64,000 nt of DNA from Sphingobium chungbukense (GTDB taxonomy: Bacteria; Pseudomonadota; Alphaproteobacteria; Sphingomonadales; Sphingomonadaceae). The notes beneath the pieces are model-generated. The model ran no database searches. It was not told the DNA's origin and worked only from the letters and a program-made list of their open reading frames with translations. Position 1 is the stretch's first letter. Every line of letters begins with the position of its first letter. The stretch is taken from contig NZ_LBIC01000001.1 in NCBI RefSeq assembly GCF_001005725.1, positions 248,001 through 312,000 of the forward strand. Direction: 5' to 3'. Shown piece by piece: positions 33-51,270 of this stretch. Position numbers and translations under genes: made by a program.

Positions 33-371
33 ATGGAGAGCGATATTTTGCAGCCTGCCGAGCTTGACCGGATTTTCAGCGCCCTCGCCGATCCCACGCG
101 CCGGGCGATCCTCCACCGCCTGGCCAGGGGCGAAGCGACGGTGAACGCACTGGTCGCGCCGTCCGGCCTTCGCCAGCCGACCGTGTCGAAGCATCTGAAG
201 ATATTGGAGGAGGCCGGCCTCGTGTCGCGGGGTCGCGCCGCACAGACCCGGCCGGTGCGGCTGGAACCCGCGCCGCTCAAGGCCGCGGCGCAATGGCTGG
301 GCGATTATGAAGCCTTCTGGAACGCCAGCTACGACCGGCTGGAAGCCTATCTGAAAGGAGAGGAAGCATGA
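33..371 (+). CDS. ArsR-family winged-helix transcriptional regulator
   Basis: A 112-residue protein with the compact ArsR/SmtB fold. It opens with DRIFSALADPTRRAILHRL, and the recognition helix lies in LRQPTVSKHLKILEEAGL at about residues 46-63. I see no cysteine cluster of a metal sensor, so this is probably the non-metal ArsR subgroup that is often paired with SRPBCC proteins. It overlaps the next gene by ATGA and so forms an operon with it. The ATG at 33 has no ribosome binding site upstream. A TTG at 48 has GGAGAG at 35-40 in front of it and may be the real start, giving 107 residues. A dyad directly upstream suggests self-repression. Confidence 0.9.
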   Translation: MESDILQPAELDRIFSALADPTRRAILHRLARGEATVNALVAPSGLRQPTVSKHLKILEEAGLVSRGRAAQTRPVRLEPAPLKAAAQWLGDYEAFWNASYDRLEAYLKGEEA

Positions 372-853
372 GCGACGAACCCCAATCGGTGCGCGAGATT
401 GTCATCACCCGGCTGATCGATGCGCCCGCGCCTCTGGTCTTTGCCGCCCATGCCGATCCGGTGCATGTGAAGCGCTGGTTCGGGCCGGTCGGCTGGCCGC
501 TGACGAAATGCGAGATGGATTTCCGGGTCGGCGGGCGCTTCCGGTTCCAGATGACCAGCAGCGAGGGGGAATTGGGACCGCCCTTTGGCGGCACCTATCT
601 GGAGATCGTGCCCCATGTGCGGATTCGGTACGACAATGGTTTCGAGGCGCCCGGATCGTCGGTGATGGTGACGACGATCAGCTTTGCCGAGGATGCGGAG
701 GGGCGGACATTGCTGACGCACCACACCCTGTTCGAGAGCAAGGCGATGCGGGACGAATATCTGGGCGTCGGCTTCGAGGAAGGGACGAATTCGGGGCTGG
801 ACCAGTTGGAAGGGGTCGTGGCGGAACTGGTGGCGGAGGTCGGTGGGGGTTAG
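368..853 (+). CDS. SRPBCC (AHSA1-like) domain protein
   Basis: A 161-residue protein of the START/Bet v1-like SRPBCC superfamily, Aha1-homology branch. Family marks are the N-terminal REIVITRLIDAPAPLVFAA, the segment HVKRWFGPVGW, FRVGGRFRFQM, and the C-terminal GTNSGLDQLEGVV. Such proteins have a hydrophobic cavity for small ligands, and their substrates are mostly unknown. It is translationally coupled to the ArsR gene (4-bp overlap), the usual arrangement for this pair. The regulator therefore probably controls this gene. The TAG stop codon is also the first three bases of a long palindromic element. Confidence 0.88.
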   Translation: MSDEPQSVREIVITRLIDAPAPLVFAAHADPVHVKRWFGPVGWPLTKCEMDFRVGGRFRFQMTSSEGELGPPFGGTYLEIVPHVRIRYDNGFEAPGSSVMVTTISFAEDAEGRTLLTHHTLFESKAMRDEYLGVGFEEGTNSGLDQLEGVVAELVAEVGGG

Positions 854-996
854 GGCCAATCGACATTTAGATGATGACGAGACGAAAATGGTGGTTTTTC
901 GTGACCCGGAGCGGAGCGTACTAAAAGTACGTGAGCACCGGAAGCACGGAAAAGCGCCATTTGCAGGCCGTCAGGGCTAAATGTCGATTGGCCCTA
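851..996. repeat. Palindromic intergenic element, copy 1
   Basis: Perfect 20-bp inverted arms at 851-870 and 977-996 enclose about 106 bp. The core holds CCGGAGCGGAGCGTACT, a 3-nt spacer, then AGTACGTGAGCACCGGAA, so it contains the small hairpin CGTACT/AGTACG. A second element at 2057-2198 shares this core but has different arms. It sits between two convergent genes and could serve as a two-way terminator. The TAG stop of the upstream gene is the first three bases of the left arm. Confidence 0.85.
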
Positions 997-998
997 GC

Positions 999-1021
999 CC
1001 CTCTCCCCGAAAGGGAGAGGG
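999..1021 (-). terminator. Possible nadA terminator hairpin
   Basis: CCTCTCCC and GGGAGAGG form an 8-bp stem with a short loop just downstream of the nadA stop codon. No clear T-run follows on the nadA strand, so this may act only as a 3' stabiliser or together with the palindrome beside it. Confidence 0.4.
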
Positions 1022-1030
1022 AAAGACAGG

Positions 1031-2017
1031 TCAGCGGTTGCCCAGATCGCCCTGCCCGACCGTGCCGCTCGCCATTTCCAGCATCCGGTCGAGGCTCTTT
1101 TTCGCGCCAAGGCGCAGTTCTTCGTCCATCTCGATGCGGGGCTGGAGGTCGCGCAGCGCCAGATACAGCTTTTCCATCGTGTTGAGCGCCATGTACGGGC
1201 AGATATTGCAGTTGCAATTGCCGTCCGCGCCGGGCGCGCCGATGAAGGTCTTTTCCGGCACCGCCTTCTGCATCTGGTGGATGATGTGCGGTTCGGTGGC
1301 GACGATCAGCGTGTCGCCGGGCATGGTCTTCGAAAATTCCAATATGCCGCTGGTCGAGCCGACATAATCGGCATGGTCGACGATATAGGGCGGGCATTCC
1401 GGATGCGCGGCGATCGGCGCGTCCGGGTGCTGGGCCTTCAATTTCAGCAATTCGGTCTCGCTGAACGCCTCATGCACGATGCACACGCCCGGCCAGAGCA
1501 GCATGTCCCGGCACAGCTTGCGCTTGAGATAGCCGCCCAGATGCTTGTCGGGGCCGAAGATGATCTTCTGCTCCTTCGGGATCTGCGCAAGGATCTTTTC
1601 CGCCGACGAACTGGTGACGATGATGTCGGAAAGCGCCTTCACCTCGGCCGAGCAGTTGATGTAGCTCAAGGCGATATGATCGGGATGGGCTTCGCGGAAG
1701 GCCTTGAACTGGGCGGGCGGGCAACTGTCCTCCAGGCTGCAACCGGCGTCCATGTCGGGCAGGACGACGATCTTCTCAGGGCTGAGGATTTTCGCGGTTT
1801 CAGCCATGAAGCGCACGCCGCAGAAGGCGATCACGTCCGCGTCCGTCTCCGCCGCCTTGCGCGAGAGTTCGAGGGAGTCGCCGACGAAATCGGACAGGTC
1901 CTGGATTTCGGGCTTCTGATAATAATGGCCGAGGATGACGGCGTTGCGTTCCTTGCGCAGCCGGTCGATCTCCGCGCGCAGGTCGATCCCCTGCGGGATG
2001 GTGGTCATCGCAGTCAT
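1031..2017 (-). CDS. nadA: Quinolinate synthase NadA
   Basis: Makes quinolinate from iminoaspartate and dihydroxyacetone phosphate in de novo NAD synthesis. It is a cytoplasmic [4Fe-4S] enzyme. About 328 residues, normal for the family. It shows ILGHYYQKPEIQD near residue 28, MDAGCSLEDSCPP near residue 90 (first cluster cysteine), AAHPECPPY (second) and CNCNICPYM near the C-terminus (third). The ATG at 2017 is preceded by GAGGAG at good spacing. An upstream in-frame extension is possible but would run into the palindromic element, so I reject it. No nadB or nadC is nearby. Confidence 0.95.
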   Translation of the reverse strand: MTAMTTIPQGIDLRAEIDRLRKERNAVILGHYYQKPEIQDLSDFVGDSLELSRKAAETDADVIAFCGVRFMAETAKILSPEKIVVLPDMDAGCSLEDSCPPAQFKAFREAHPDHIALSYINCSAEVKALSDIIVTSSSAEKILAQIPKEQKIIFGPDKHLGGYLKRKLCRDMLLWPGVCIVHEAFSETELLKLKAQHPDAPIAAHPECPPYIVDHADYVGSTSGILEFSKTMPGDTLIVATEPHIIHQMQKAVPEKTFIGAPGADGNCNCNICPYMALNTMEKLYLALRDLQPRIEMDEELRLGAKKSLDRMLEMASGTVGQGDLGNR

Positions 2018-2056
2018 GTGCCTCACTCCTCTCGGCCTCCACGCGCACCCCCTCGA

Positions 2057-2198
2057 GGGCTGCCCCGGCATGGCGTTCAGATGGTGCCGAGAAGTGTGAT
2101 TTTCGAGTACCGGAGCGCAGCGTACTTCAGTACGTGAGCACCGGAACGAAGAAAATCGCGCTTCGCAGGCCCGTATGGACGCCATGCCGGGGCAGCCC
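2057..2198. repeat. Palindromic intergenic element, copy 2
   Basis: Perfect 20-bp inverted arms at 2057-2076 and 2179-2198, unrelated in sequence to those of the copy at 851-996. The core is shared: CCGGAGCGCAGCGTACT, then AGTACGTGAGCACCGGAA, again with the CGTACT/AGTACG mini-hairpin. The right arm abuts the TAG stop of the DUF4230 gene (2199-2201, reverse strand). It lies between that gene and nadA and could end its transcript. Confidence 0.85.
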
Positions 2199-2918
2199 CT
2201 AGCGGGACTGTCGCTTGTTGGCCAGTACCTCGTTGATCGGTGTCGTGACGTCCCATTGGTCGCGATTCCTGTCGGTGCGTTCCGGCGGGAAGGTGACGAT
2301 CACCCGCGCGTCGCCATAGCCGAGCGCCCCAAGCGGCGCGCCGAGCAGCCTGCCGAGCGCAGCGCGGCCATAATCGCGGGCCTGCGCCATGCGTTCGGGC
2401 GAGCGGGCCTCCTTTTCGGCGCGGCCCTGCGCATGGGCCGAGGTGCGGCGGCTGAGTTCCTCGCCCGCCTTGCGGGTGACGATGAGACCGTTGGTCTGGA
2501 CCAGCGTGCGGCGGCTTTCGTCGATATTGGGGCGGCCCGGCTTCACATCGGGCGCGTTGACGATGAGCGTGCGGGTCTTCCCATTCCATTCCAGGTCGCT
2601 GGCGTCGATGCCGCTCACATCGATGAAATAATCCACCGAGAAGGGCATTTTGACGACCTGATCGGACTTGAGCCAGCCGAAGCCGCGCACATCCTGCGCC
2701 GTGCTCTGGATCGTGCCGGAGAGTTCGGACACCTTGAGGCTGGCGGCGCCCGCGAAACGCTCCGCAATGAGCTTCGTGACGGCGGTGCCGTCATCCTCCA
2801 CGCTTACCGCATAGTCGCGCTGATAGCGGTGCCAGCCGACCAGCATGGCCGCGCCGACGATCAGGAGCAGCAGCGCGGCGGCGATGGCCCCCGCATGGCG
2901 TTTCAACGCAACTGCCAT
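2199..2918 (-). CDS. DUF4230 membrane-anchored protein
   Basis: A 239-residue protein of the DUF4230 family, function unknown. Residues 9-28 form one hydrophobic segment (AGAIAAALLLLIVGAAMLVG) after a basic start. The rest looks soluble and probably extracytoplasmic, with VKMPFSVDYFIDVSGI in the middle typical of the family. It overlaps the hydrolase gene upstream by 16 bp and is probably cotranscribed with it. The downstream palindrome likely ends the transcript. Confidence 0.75.
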   Translation of the reverse strand: MAVALKRHAGAIAAALLLLIVGAAMLVGWHRYQRDYAVSVEDDGTAVTKLIAERFAGAASLKVSELSGTIQSTAQDVRGFGWLKSDQVVKMPFSVDYFIDVSGIDASDLEWNGKTRTLIVNAPDVKPGRPNIDESRRTLVQTNGLIVTRKAGEELSRRTSAHAQGRAEKEARSPERMAQARDYGRAALGRLLGAPLGALGYGDARVIVTFPPERTDRNRDQWDVTTPINEVLANKRQSR

Positions 2919-3846: not shown

Positions 3847-4743
3847 ATGACGGCTTCAGGCGATCTTTGCGAACAGTGGCGGCGGCATCTGGCGCTCGAC
3901 CGGCGGCGGTCGGTGCATACGGTGCGGGCCTATATGGCGACCGCCGAGCGGCTGGTCGCCTTCCTGGAGGAGCATCGCGGCGAGGCCGTGACGGCGGCGA
4001 TGCTGGCGGGGGTCGAGCAGGCGGATTTGCGGGCCTTCCTCACCGCCCGGCGGATGGACGGGATCGGCAATGTGTCGGCGGCGCGGGAATTGTCCGCGGT
4101 GCGCGGATTCCTGAAGTTCGTGGGCGGCGAGGATGCGCGGGTGCCGTTGATGAAAGGACCAAGGGTGAAGCGCGGGCTGCCGCGCCCGGTGTCGCCGGAC
4201 GAGGCTGTCGCGCTGGCGGAGGACATTGCCGAAACGGCGCGCGAGCCGTGGATCGGGGCGCGGGACTGGGCGGTGCTGCTGCTGCTTTACGGCGCGGGAC
4301 TGCGCATCGGGGAGGCGATGGGGCTGAACGGGGCGGTGCTGCCGCTGGGCGAGACGCTGCGGGTGACGGGCAAGCGGGGCAAGACGCGCATCGTGCCCCT
4401 GCTGCCCAGGGTGCGGGAGGCGATCGAGGCCTATGTGGCGCTATGCCCCTTCGGGACGGAGAAAGACGCGCCGCTGTTCCGGGGGACACGGGGCGGGCCG
4501 CTGTCGCCCGCGCTGATCCGCCGGGCGGTGCAGGGGGCGCGGGGGCGGCTGGGGCTGTCGGACCGGACGACGCCGCATGCGTTGCGGCACAGCTTCGCCA
4601 CGCATCTGCTGGGGCGCGGGGCGGATTTGCGGTCGTTGCAGGAATTGCTGGGCCATGCCAGCCTGTCCTCTACCCAGATCTATACGCAGGTGGATGCGGC
4701 GCATCTGCTGGACGTCTACCGGAATGCGCATCCCCGGGCTTAG
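3847..4743 (+). CDS. xerC: Tyrosine recombinase XerC
   Basis: A 298-residue site-specific recombinase that resolves chromosome dimers with XerD at the dif site. The N-terminal SAM-like core-binding domain is residues 1-90. The catalytic set is complete: R in GAGLRIGEA, K in TGKRGKTRIVP, H and R in HALRHSFATHLL, H in LGHASLSS, and the nucleophile Y in TQIYTQVD. The length and the chromosomal housekeeping neighbours favour XerC over a mobile-element integrase. Its TAG stop forms the first three bases of a perfect palindrome. Confidence 0.88.
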   Translation: MTASGDLCEQWRRHLALDRRRSVHTVRAYMATAERLVAFLEEHRGEAVTAAMLAGVEQADLRAFLTARRMDGIGNVSAARELSAVRGFLKFVGGEDARVPLMKGPRVKRGLPRPVSPDEAVALAEDIAETAREPWIGARDWAVLLLLYGAGLRIGEAMGLNGAVLPLGETLRVTGKRGKTRIVPLLPRVREAIEAYVALCPFGTEKDAPLFRGTRGGPLSPALIRRAVQGARGRLGLSDRTTPHALRHSFATHLLGRGADLRSLQELLGHASLSSTQIYTQVDAAHLLDVYRNAHPRA

Positions 4744-4842
4744 AGCGGCCGATCTGATTGAATCAGATCGGCCGCTCTAAGTCTTTTATTTGCTGCGATT
4801 TCTTAACCGTCAGATGATGCCATCTGACTGGAAATCGCTCTA
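4741..4842. repeat. Convergent palindromic element between xerC and dedA
   Basis: The left half is a perfect palindrome with 19-bp arms at 4741-4759 and 4761-4779 around one base. The right half (about 4795-4842, read on the reverse strand) starts TAGAGCGATTTCCAGTCAGA and contains CAGATG/CATCTG. Both halves begin with TAGAGCG, and in both the TAG is the stop codon of the adjoining gene (xerC and the DedA gene). A stretch CTTTTATTT follows the left palindrome, so it also looks like an intrinsic terminator for xerC. Confidence 0.8.
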
Positions 4843-10704: not shown

Positions 10705-10774
10705 CCGTGCTCCTGCGAAGGCAGGAGTCCAGGCCCGCCGTTTGAACTGGGCTCCTGCCTTCGCAGGAGCACGG
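10705..10774. repeat. Paired REP element (BIME-like)
   Basis: Two facing hairpins, each built on CTCCTGCGAAGGCAGGAG, separated by about 20 bp. The outer ends match as well (CCGTG and CACGG). The same unit pair occurs at 51182-51270, and single units occur at 54209-54224 and (variant) 37190-37209. It lies between btuC and btuF, which are divergent, so it is not simply a terminator here. Confidence 0.85.
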
Positions 10775-13560: not shown

Positions 13561-13699
13561 CATCCGCTCGCGCGGTCGGGACAGGGGACAGCCGACGCCA
13601 GTGCCGCCCCCGCACCGATGCGGCCCTGCGCCGCTTCGTCGCTCAGACGGAAAACACCGTGCCTTGGCCAACCCCTGGACCAGGGCAAGAGCGACCATG

Positions 13700-13885
13700 C
13701 GCCGGCAGGTCTCCTGGCTCGCGGGTCAATGCGGCGATGCACGCCTTCCCGGACTTGGCGTCCAGTGGCCGGTCTTGCGACCGAAGTGCATCGCGCTCAC
13801 CGCTTACAGTTGCAGGGACAGCCGCGGAATTGGACGGTTGCCCGTCCGCACCGCATTCCCGTTTTCAGCCCTTTCGGGCACCGGC
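13700..13885 (-). ncRNA. Cobalamin riboswitch
   Basis: Read on the reverse strand, this leader has the AdoCbl-type order of conserved elements: GAAAACGGGAATGCGGTG, then CCGCGGCTGTCCCTGCAACT, then GCCACTGGA, GGGAAGGCG and the B12 box AGCCAGGAGACCTGCC (13704-13719). It lies about 180 nt upstream of btuB on the same strand. The stretch between it and the start codon holds the hairpin at 13528-13560. The rest up to mobA (13886-13978) should contain the btuB promoter, but I see no clear boxes there. Confidence 0.95.
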
Positions 13886-13978
13886 GCGATCTTCTTTGCG
13901 GTCGAGGCTTTGCCCCGTCCGCGCCGCGCGCCATAAGGGAAAGCAGGGCTTCTGCCAAGCGGGTTGAGGAGGGACGGG

Positions 13979-51181: not shown

Positions 51182-51270
51182 CCGTGTTCCTGCGAAGGCA
51201 GGAACCCAGTTCCCCCCTCAGTGAATCACCGCGACAAAGGAACTGGGCTCCTGCCTTCGCAGGAGCACGG
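51182..51270. repeat. Paired REP element (BIME-like), second copy
   Basis: 32-base arms (51182-51213 and 51239-51270) that differ at only two positions. Each arm is itself a hairpin, and the two differences are the paired bases of that hairpin (T-A on the left, C-G on the right). Same family as 10705-10774, between the OmpA gene and convergent marC. Confidence 0.9.

Follow-up and report, generated by a model that had tools for sequence, protein, structure and literature searches.

Two palindromes in Sphingobium chungbukense belong to a dispersed hairpin family whose arm pairing is probably kept by selection on one strand

The stretch of DNA analyzed here, called the window, comprises 64,000 nucleotides of Sphingobium chungbukense contig NZ_LBIC01000001.1 (positions 248,001 to 312,000; assembly GCF_001005725.1). 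It contains two palindromic elements. Element 1 separates an AHSA1-domain gene from the NadA gene, and element 2 separates the NadA start from the end of a DUF4230 gene. A sequence-only reading had reported that the two elements share a core, that each has perfectly complementary 20-bp arms, and that one arm of each meets a TAG stop codon. All three observations hold. We built a covariance model, R1, from 34 copies of the repeat, a training set to which both elements belong. The elements and the genes around them are as follows.

851-996, plus strand (the covariance-model strand): element 1, a 146-bp hairpin repeat of Sphingobium type A (R1 167 bits, E 5e-36)
851-870, plus strand: left arm of element 1, consensus arm TAGGGCC(A/G)ATCGACATT, a perfect inverted repeat of 977-996
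906-943, plus strand: conserved core of element 1, its columns mostly invariant or nearly so in 34 copies that had been picked by part of that core
977-996, plus strand: right arm of element 1, the perfect partner of 851-870
995-996, no strand: TA at the right end of element 1, a presumed 2-bp target duplication (left TA at 851-852)
2053-2056, no strand: TCGA at the left end of element 2, a presumed mutated duplication (the empty site of relatives L037-L042 is CCCCTAGCGGG, so TA is expected; the intact TA is at 2200-2201)
2056-2199, plus strand: element 2, a 144-bp hairpin repeat of a diverged subtype (R1 129 bits; subtype relatives L390-L409)
2057-2076, plus strand: left arm of element 2, diverged, with perfect 20-bp pairing to 2179-2198
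2110-2146, plus strand: conserved core of element 2, from the shared core piece and the 34-copy alignment
2179-2198, plus strand: right arm of element 2, with perfect 20-bp pairing to 2057-2076
368-853, plus strand: AHSA1-domain protein (PF08327), whose TAG stop at 851-853 overlaps element 1
1031-2185, minus strand: open frame with NadA (PF02445, residues 72-370), whose stop and the right end of element 1 are 34 bp apart
2199-2918, minus strand: DUF4230 protein (PF14014), whose TAG stop at 2199-2201 directly abuts element 2 on its right side

NadA probably starts near 2018; the longest-frame start given above falls inside element 2. When up to 3 mismatches were allowed, the core piece AGTACGTGAGCACCGGAA matched the window twice, both times exactly, against 0.02 matches expected. 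Folded with a few flanking bases, both elements had energies below all 200 shuffles (z -11.4 and -12.4). A near-identical second copy of element 1 is found at G000:C1:1043299-1043444.

A strict core pattern matched 15 of 41 genomes, all Sphingobium, and yielded 42 distinct copies. The sequence-only reading had proposed checking whether the flanks of other core copies are self-complementary. The arms paired at 16 or more of 20 positions in 39 of the 42 copies and at fewer than 16 in 3. Pairing is kept while the arm drifts, as had been suggested: identity between partner arms averages 18.3 of 20, compared to 15.1 when the right arm is taken from another copy. The arms of the two window elements had also been called unrelated. 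This stands for the pairwise comparison, where the element 2 arms match the consensus at 11 of 20 positions, and for the outermost bases, but not for origin, as the two are subtypes of one repeat. One fixed arm sequence across copies, named in advance as the finding that would count against free arms, was seen in part: in 31 of the 42 left arms, at least 14 of 20 positions agree with the consensus TAGGGCCAATCGACATTCAG, and the others form subtypes. Element 1 carries the consensus arm. Of 20 relatives read for the element 2 subtype, 4 (L391, L393, L394, and L400) have TAGGGCGGTCCG(G/A)CATTCAGTTCA or nearly so, and the element 2 arm AGGGCTGCCCCGGCATGGCGTTCA is, by eye, a diverged form of this subtype arm. 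A further arm subtype is exemplified by TAGGGTGTGTGGGGATTCAG. The outer ten bases, although still paired, often vary between copies in other genera and in Rhizobiales.

We found R1 matches in 79 of 94 Sphingobium genomes and, at E 1e-4, in 53 of 199 genomes and 35 of 96 genera of a family sample. At E 1e-6, two Mesorhizobium genomes gave 53 and 46 matches and one Brucella tritici genome gave 27; such numbers count both strands of a site and so are not copy numbers, and those of the Sphingobium and family scans are also capped, with 33 or 15 candidates scored. Among the matches listed, the exact core occurs in Mesorhizobium, Phyllobacterium, Ochrobactrum, Brucella tritici, Agrobacterium vitis, Asticcacaulis, Bosea, and others, reaching Rhizobiales and Caulobacterales, with one exact match in Listeria fleischmannii (L481). 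The core of element 1 is common to all three. Element 1 also matched 34 plasmid records, including 14 from Sphingobium and 7 from Shinella. R1 was run on 40 of the 80 listed exact-core loci, and 32 matches form our non-sphingomonad set. Sphingomonad and Listeria rows were left out of this set, as were partial or much-enlarged matches (L448:835, L451:3291, L443:6915, L460, L475, L493, and L519), and the element ends of L442 and L443 were set by hand. Gene context was read in 174 copies, a non-random set of best-scoring copies and chosen genomes, with genes predicted by a simple codon-score finder rather than taken from annotation. Sequence comparison shows the two palindromes to be members of one dispersed, non-coding mobile hairpin family with a single conserved core, consistent with the earlier proposal of one core element that inserts at gene ends.

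The family matches no described element in Rfam at gathering score, in keeping with the statement that no element of this design is described. At that score Rfam finds in the window only a cobalamin riboswitch, away from the elements; at the elements and their relatives it gives weak sub-gathering matches only, besides tRNA and tmRNA themselves. We recognized no description of this core in a literature search, a weak negative given that subscription journals were mostly outside its coverage. Twelve letters, GTGCTCACGTAC, occur as a string match in two papers, one about dental cells and one about Thalassospira small RNAs.

Some copies carry additional sequence. In the mosaic copies L015, L016, L025, and L280, a second small palindrome (TTGAAACGAGTCACGTGCCTCGTTTCAA and relatives) lengthens the inner core or takes its place. 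An extra module is present in one arm only in L015, L018, L019, L074, and L076, and in L014 (GCCGAAGGCCACCGAAGGT and relatives), and some Rhizobiales copies have a one-arm module with GAGTCGAAGACGGGCGCGAAGCGACC.

The paired positions change in a way that distinguishes the two strands. RNAalifold gave 52 pairs, with double changes in 28. More than one Watson-Crick type occurred in 35 of 56 pairs (93 sequences) and in 41 of 50 pairs (54 sequences from other genera), the pairs being picked from the same alignments. Of the 174 copies, 147 distinct ones with lengths of 138-152 bases entered this analysis. Using a strand-symmetric aligner and counting mismatches flanked by pairs, we compared G.T to A.C on the plus (model) strand. 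The ratio was 250:59 in 110 copies, 128:25 in 43 copies, and 66:14 in 20 copies at RNA-gene loci. For the outer arms alone it was 86:19, 71:9, and 41:4 in the same three groups. The 32 non-sphingomonad copies gave 81:9, and 20 Listeria copies gave 41:2. By a similar count, 36 T-run hairpins gave 15:1 and 193 background hairpins 38:29. In all five copies that were folded, the plus strand folded 11-24 kcal/mol better than its complement. These data indicate that arm pairing is probably kept by selection on one single strand, shown as plus in the window, because G.T is tolerated far above A.C on that strand.

Deamination alone was rejected as the source of the G.T pairs because A>G is also favored in stems and unpaired columns have no C>T excess. 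In two sets of copies, stems gave C>T over G>A at 82:28 and 84:43 and A>G over T>C at 92:19 and 55:17. The corresponding ratios in unpaired columns were 6:32 and 4:40 for C>T versus G>A, and 4:34 and 35:19 for A>G versus T>C.

The sequence-only reading had suggested comparing occupied with empty sites, and had offered capture of flanking sequence in inverted form as one origin of the arms. At the site of element 2, GCGCACCCCCTCGAGGGC...GCCCCTAGCGGG in the window corresponds to GCGCGCCCCTAGCGGG in relatives L037-L042; L039, L041, and L042 share the window's neighboring gene, and the remaining relatives have another. Seven G008 copies were likewise compared to relatives in 12 pairs. The element was absent from each relative, with gaps in 117-163 of 146-170 element columns, the non-gap columns being diverged flank placed there by the aligner. 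A single CTA or TTA marks the junction in one or more relatives at 5 of the 7 G008 sites (L012, L067, L068, L070, and L072). No arm sequence is present at any of these empty sites, neither that of element 2 nor those of the seven G008 copies. The arms in Sphingobium are therefore the element's own rather than captured flank, and the suggestion of inverted capture is not supported in the window genus. For element 1, none of the four relatives that have its gene beside nadA offers a clean empty site: the stop GGGGGTTAG is kept in G043 and G076, with different downstream sequence, and G008 and G024 have other stops.

Both ends carry TA in 89 of 111 copies of the window genus, preceded by C or T in 86 of the 89 and followed by A or G in 87. 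Thus, Sphingobium copies are inserted at (C/T)TA(A/G) sites with TA on either side, which is the TA duplication of a bacterial miniature inverted-repeat transposable element (MITE). This holds for the Sphingobium subfamily alone.

Gene 3' ends are often flush with a copy. For the 154 copies beside protein genes, the right-hand gene end alone is flush in 67, the left-hand end alone in 25, both in 10, and neither in 52. With a slightly wider limit, the 32 non-sphingomonad copies gave 20 right-hand only and 3 left-hand only. The folded strand is thus antisense to the gene whose end most often coincides with that of the element. In tandem contexts the orientation bias was not significant (40 versus 27, P = 0.07). 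The other 20 copies follow RNA genes (12 tRNA-Ala(GGC), 2 tRNA-Ala(CGC), 1 tRNA-Gln, and 5 tmRNA), and in all 20 the folded strand is antisense to the RNA gene. The next genes there, named from their translations, are ffh and obgE, and at tmRNA a small convergent gene in 3 of 5.

Orientation also tends to follow replication. This analysis covers listed copies only. On four chromosomes, the C-rich strand is the folded one in 49 of 59 copies when skew is averaged over three samples and in 45 of 59 with the nearest sample alone. For two Mesorhizobium chromosomes, a two-arc split made independently of skew accommodates 36 of 41 copies in one and 30 of 33 in the other, a fit that 0 of 200 shuffles reached in each case. 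GC skew is very strong on the G147 chromosome, where it reaches 0.24 per 20 kb and locally changes sign.

Only a minority of the sampled tRNA-Ala loci are occupied. We sampled 30 loci by the tRNA-Ala end, and R1 matched at E 0.1 in 4, all in previously known genomes. Universal conservation at tRNA-Ala(GGC)-ffh is excluded by this 4 of 30. About 17 of the 26 unoccupied loci have a conserved downstream hairpin with a T-run (by eye; TGTTTTT or CTTTT in some), and L420 resembles a decayed copy (by eye). Core divergence at tRNA-Ala/ffh does not track ffh divergence (Mantel P = 0.27). In two genomes of one genus, the elements at this site (L128:1501-1647 and L132:1501-1649) are 81% identical with 12 gap columns, and their flanks are 96-99% identical, as either replacement or fast change of the element might produce. 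Two other features were seen at such loci. At L135:1430-1464 (minus strand), a conserved hairpin between the element and ffh gives a weak match to the Rfam 'ffh' small RNA (23.5 bits versus a gathering score of 35). In many of the Sphingobium loci L216-L245, another palindrome family directly follows the CCA end of tRNA-Ala(GGC) (GTTTTTCGG..AAAATGTCCGGGGGACATTTTC..CCGAAAAACTCCCGAGCGCAAGCGAGG).

The relative in L. fleischmannii is numerous and has a flank of a different kind. The genome (G316) contains 42 copies of a 17-base core with at most 2 mismatches, 30 of them exact, and the reversed control gave 0. In the 20 copies read, the unit is a hairpin of about 123 bases, typically with AAATGGTG, CCGGAGCGGAGCGTACT, and GTACGTGAGCACCGGAA. 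A run of at least 10 bases of the locus-specific terminator hairpin stands on both sides of the unit in 18 of the 20. Likewise, the 45-base flanks share a run of at least 9 bases in 18 of 20 copies, compared to 2.9% of mixed pairs. A copy-like event, with the terminator on both sides, does exist in this distant relative. The right-hand gene is on the minus strand in 16 of 20 copies, the same geometry as in alphaproteobacteria.

What does the fold do? We infer that it functions either in mobility through a single strand or as an RNA from the strand opposite the adjacent gene. With moderate confidence, we favor a mobile TA-site hairpin family with covarying arms of its own, in which the folded single strand is used by the mobility machinery. 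The folded strand, as single-stranded DNA or an RNA copy, would be the substrate of that machinery. Only copies able to fold would propagate, which would leave the arms free to drift as long as they pair. Orientation relative to the neighboring gene would mostly be set later, by loss of copies in the opposite orientation. We favor the mobility role because a recent expansion (Sphingobium), distant orders, and a second phylum with different targets all show the same constraint.

Several results weigh against this mobility reading. No mobility protein was found. The arm pattern (1 mismatch allowed), searched in G000 and G008, gave 26 hits, 23 of them in element-size pairs or a known copy; a deleted copy and two isolated hits make up the other three. 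None of the pairs is of transposon size, and a parent transposon is rejected in these two genomes, as the pattern marks no element of greater length. Outside the window genus, TA is present at both ends in only 9 of 63 copies. The G.T counts are not independent events, given shared descent and fixed wobble positions in the core. At tRNA-Ala/ffh, the 12 copies from nine genera keep the strand bias at 36:5, which would suggest a resident function over mobility if descent there is vertical. The two-arc tests are weak alone in three genomes (21, 19, and 16 of 200 shuffles in G058, G147, and G230) and passable in G057 (4 of 200). Gene orientation is weak among near-identical copies (25 right versus 16 left of 70), with no bias in the copy-rich G012 (6:7) and G008 (3:3). 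This weak bias does not fit an insertion bias. Diverged copies gave 6:1 in a small sample of 11, and gene orientation would thus reflect later loss of copies in one orientation, not an insertion rule. Such a filter is explained better by an opposite-strand RNA than by mobility.

That RNA is part of the strongest alternative, which we hold as a tentative possibility. Here, the repeat would be a TA-ended MITE moved by an IS630- or IS5-like DDE transposase, and resident RNA hairpins on the strand opposite the adjacent gene would block or terminate antisense transcripts that enter its 3' end head-on. Selection would keep the fold on the opposite strand and remove copies in the other orientation. 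These transposase families habitually target CTAG/YTAR. The TA duplication fits this explanation, as do a strand bias of the same kind as in T-run terminators, the right-hand flush excess in both the 154 and the 32 copies, and an orientation bias that is weak in near-identical copies and stronger in the few diverged ones. It also accounts for gene and replication orientation jointly. However, no T-run follows the element on the folded strand, tandem contexts offer no known transcription of that strand, and the two genomes searched hold no matching longer element.

A bolder extension of the mobility reading is unlikely. In this proposal, a new class of phylum-crossing mobile hairpin is copied via a folded single strand (RNA or single-stranded DNA) into the leading strand at gene-end hairpins, as a bacterial counterpart of the short interspersed nuclear elements (SINEs). 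In Listeria the whole local terminator would be duplicated, and in alphaproteobacteria the outer arms would be rewritten freely with pairing kept. If true, SINE-like copying would unite strand-specific folding, replication orientation, and gene-end position in one mechanism.

We consider it improbable that the core copies its flank in inverted form at insertion, as the sequence-only reading had offered. The duplicated Listeria terminators agree with such copying, and at tRNA-Ala loci the gene-proximal arm resembles, by eye, the trailer of unoccupied loci. In alphaproteobacteria, runs of at least 9 bases shared between the 45-base flanks occur in 7 of 202 copies, compared to about 2.6 expected from mixed pairs, a slight excess at most. 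The excess lies in the window genus (5 of 111 versus 1.4% of mixed pairs); other groups gave 2 of 63 versus 1.3% and 0 of 28 versus 0.6%, the 28 being part of the 32 non-sphingomonad copies. Arms are also common across genomes, and 9 of 12 tRNA-Ala arm pairs have the same A/G mismatch (by eye), which is unexpected from fresh copying. Given the empty sites, this explanation is already contradicted in Sphingobium.

An intrinsic terminator or 3' stabilizer of the adjacent gene's own transcript is less probable still. The position of the element at stop codons and at tRNA and tmRNA ends suits such a role, and a terminator with arms set by the gene end was the other origin first proposed. At the 154 protein loci, however, the T fraction is 0.02-0.30 at each of 14 positions past either end, so that no T-run follows the element on either strand, which speaks against an intrinsic terminator. 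It is the A.C-mismatch strand, not the constrained one, that appears in the transcript of the gene most frequently flush with the element. Where a copy follows an RNA gene (20 loci), the T fraction reaches 0.65 on the strand read by transcription from that gene, and at tRNA-Ala a separate hairpin with its own T-run lies past the element (by eye).

Least probable of all is a repetitive extragenic palindrome (REP) moved by a REP-associated tyrosine transposase (RAYT) of the Y1 family, since this repeat is about 146 bp and paired to its ends with no unpaired GTAG or CGTC end seen, and Y1_Tnp (PF01797), present in some match-rich genomes (G043, G047, G096, and G107), occurs in only 23 of the 94 genus genomes and is absent from eight match-rich ones (G000, G008, G012, G054, G055, G057, G058, and G071; 9 to at least 33 R1 matches, where one site can count twice), despite the single-strand folding, small palindrome, and gene-end position that recall such elements.

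Other repeats and RNAs occur elsewhere in the window. The cobalamin riboswitch lies at 13687-13900 (minus strand; 116 bits). Two 21-base arms, 1 base apart, lie at 4739-4781 (CTTAGAGCGGCCGATCTGATT); a similar repeat is present in the flank of the L003 copy, with many recurrences in G000, G095, G076, and G090. Inverted repeats with TCCTGCGAAGGCAGGA at 10705-10774 and 51188-51264 probably represent a further short repeat family.

Pairing that is kept while sequence is free is also found in integron attC sites, whose folded strand is opposite the upstream gene. The hairpin repeat resembles attC in both respects, and no GTTRRRY/RYYYAAC boxes were noticed in it by eye. The RIME element of rhizobia (Osteras 1995) is reportedly 108 bp long with two palindromes. 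Compared by description only, it too is an intergenic palindromic element of Rhizobiales, said to have its palindromes side by side where our repeat is one nested hairpin. In the part of the source available, Bru-RS1/RS2 of Brucella are described as 103-105 bp long with 35-40 copies (PMC2267715). They are likewise palindromic and from Rhizobiales, where R1 found the 27 matches in B. tritici (some of them two strands of one site); their reported length differs from that of our repeat, again by description only. Bru-RS and RIME might be relatives of the Rhizobiales copies, or the same. If they are identical, the Rhizobiales part of the family has been described before, and what is new is confined to the findings on strand, replication, and Listeria.

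CGTC-tagged REPs have been described in S. chlorophenolicum, S. wittichii, and N. aromaticivorans, near gene 3' ends in S. wittichii, and the accessible portion of that report associates those of Alphaproteobacteria with no transposase gene (Di Nocera 2013, PMC3733652). As described there, they are 20-40 bp with an unpaired CGTC end, whereas the hairpin repeat is about 146 bp with another core.

Another close likeness is to the TA-ended bacterial MITEs Correia/NEMIS, RUP, and RPE, which the excerpted review describes as shorter than 200 bp, non-coding or nearly so, mainly intergenic, and bounded by inverted repeats; RPE are palindromic elements of 105-146 bp, and RUP is linked to IS630-Spn1 (PMC2229807). 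The hairpin repeat shares their size, inverted repeats, intergenic place, and, in most, TA ends (Delihas 2007). It differs from RUP in that no partner was found in the two genomes searched. The single-strand G.T bias, replication orientation, and cross-phylum core seen here are unmentioned for these three in the excerpt (PMC2229807). Thus, the hairpin repeat behaves like a bacterial MITE, with the TA duplication present in Sphingobium. Small palindromic repeats are usually seen as relics, and here sequence comparison alone reveals the strand selected to fold; the ratio of G.T to A.C could mark the functional strand of other palindromic repeats as well. With the same core at dozens of sites in some Alphaproteobacteria and, beside duplicated terminators, in a Listeria, it becomes testable how hairpin repeats that encode no protein spread, and whether a folded single strand is the form in which they move.

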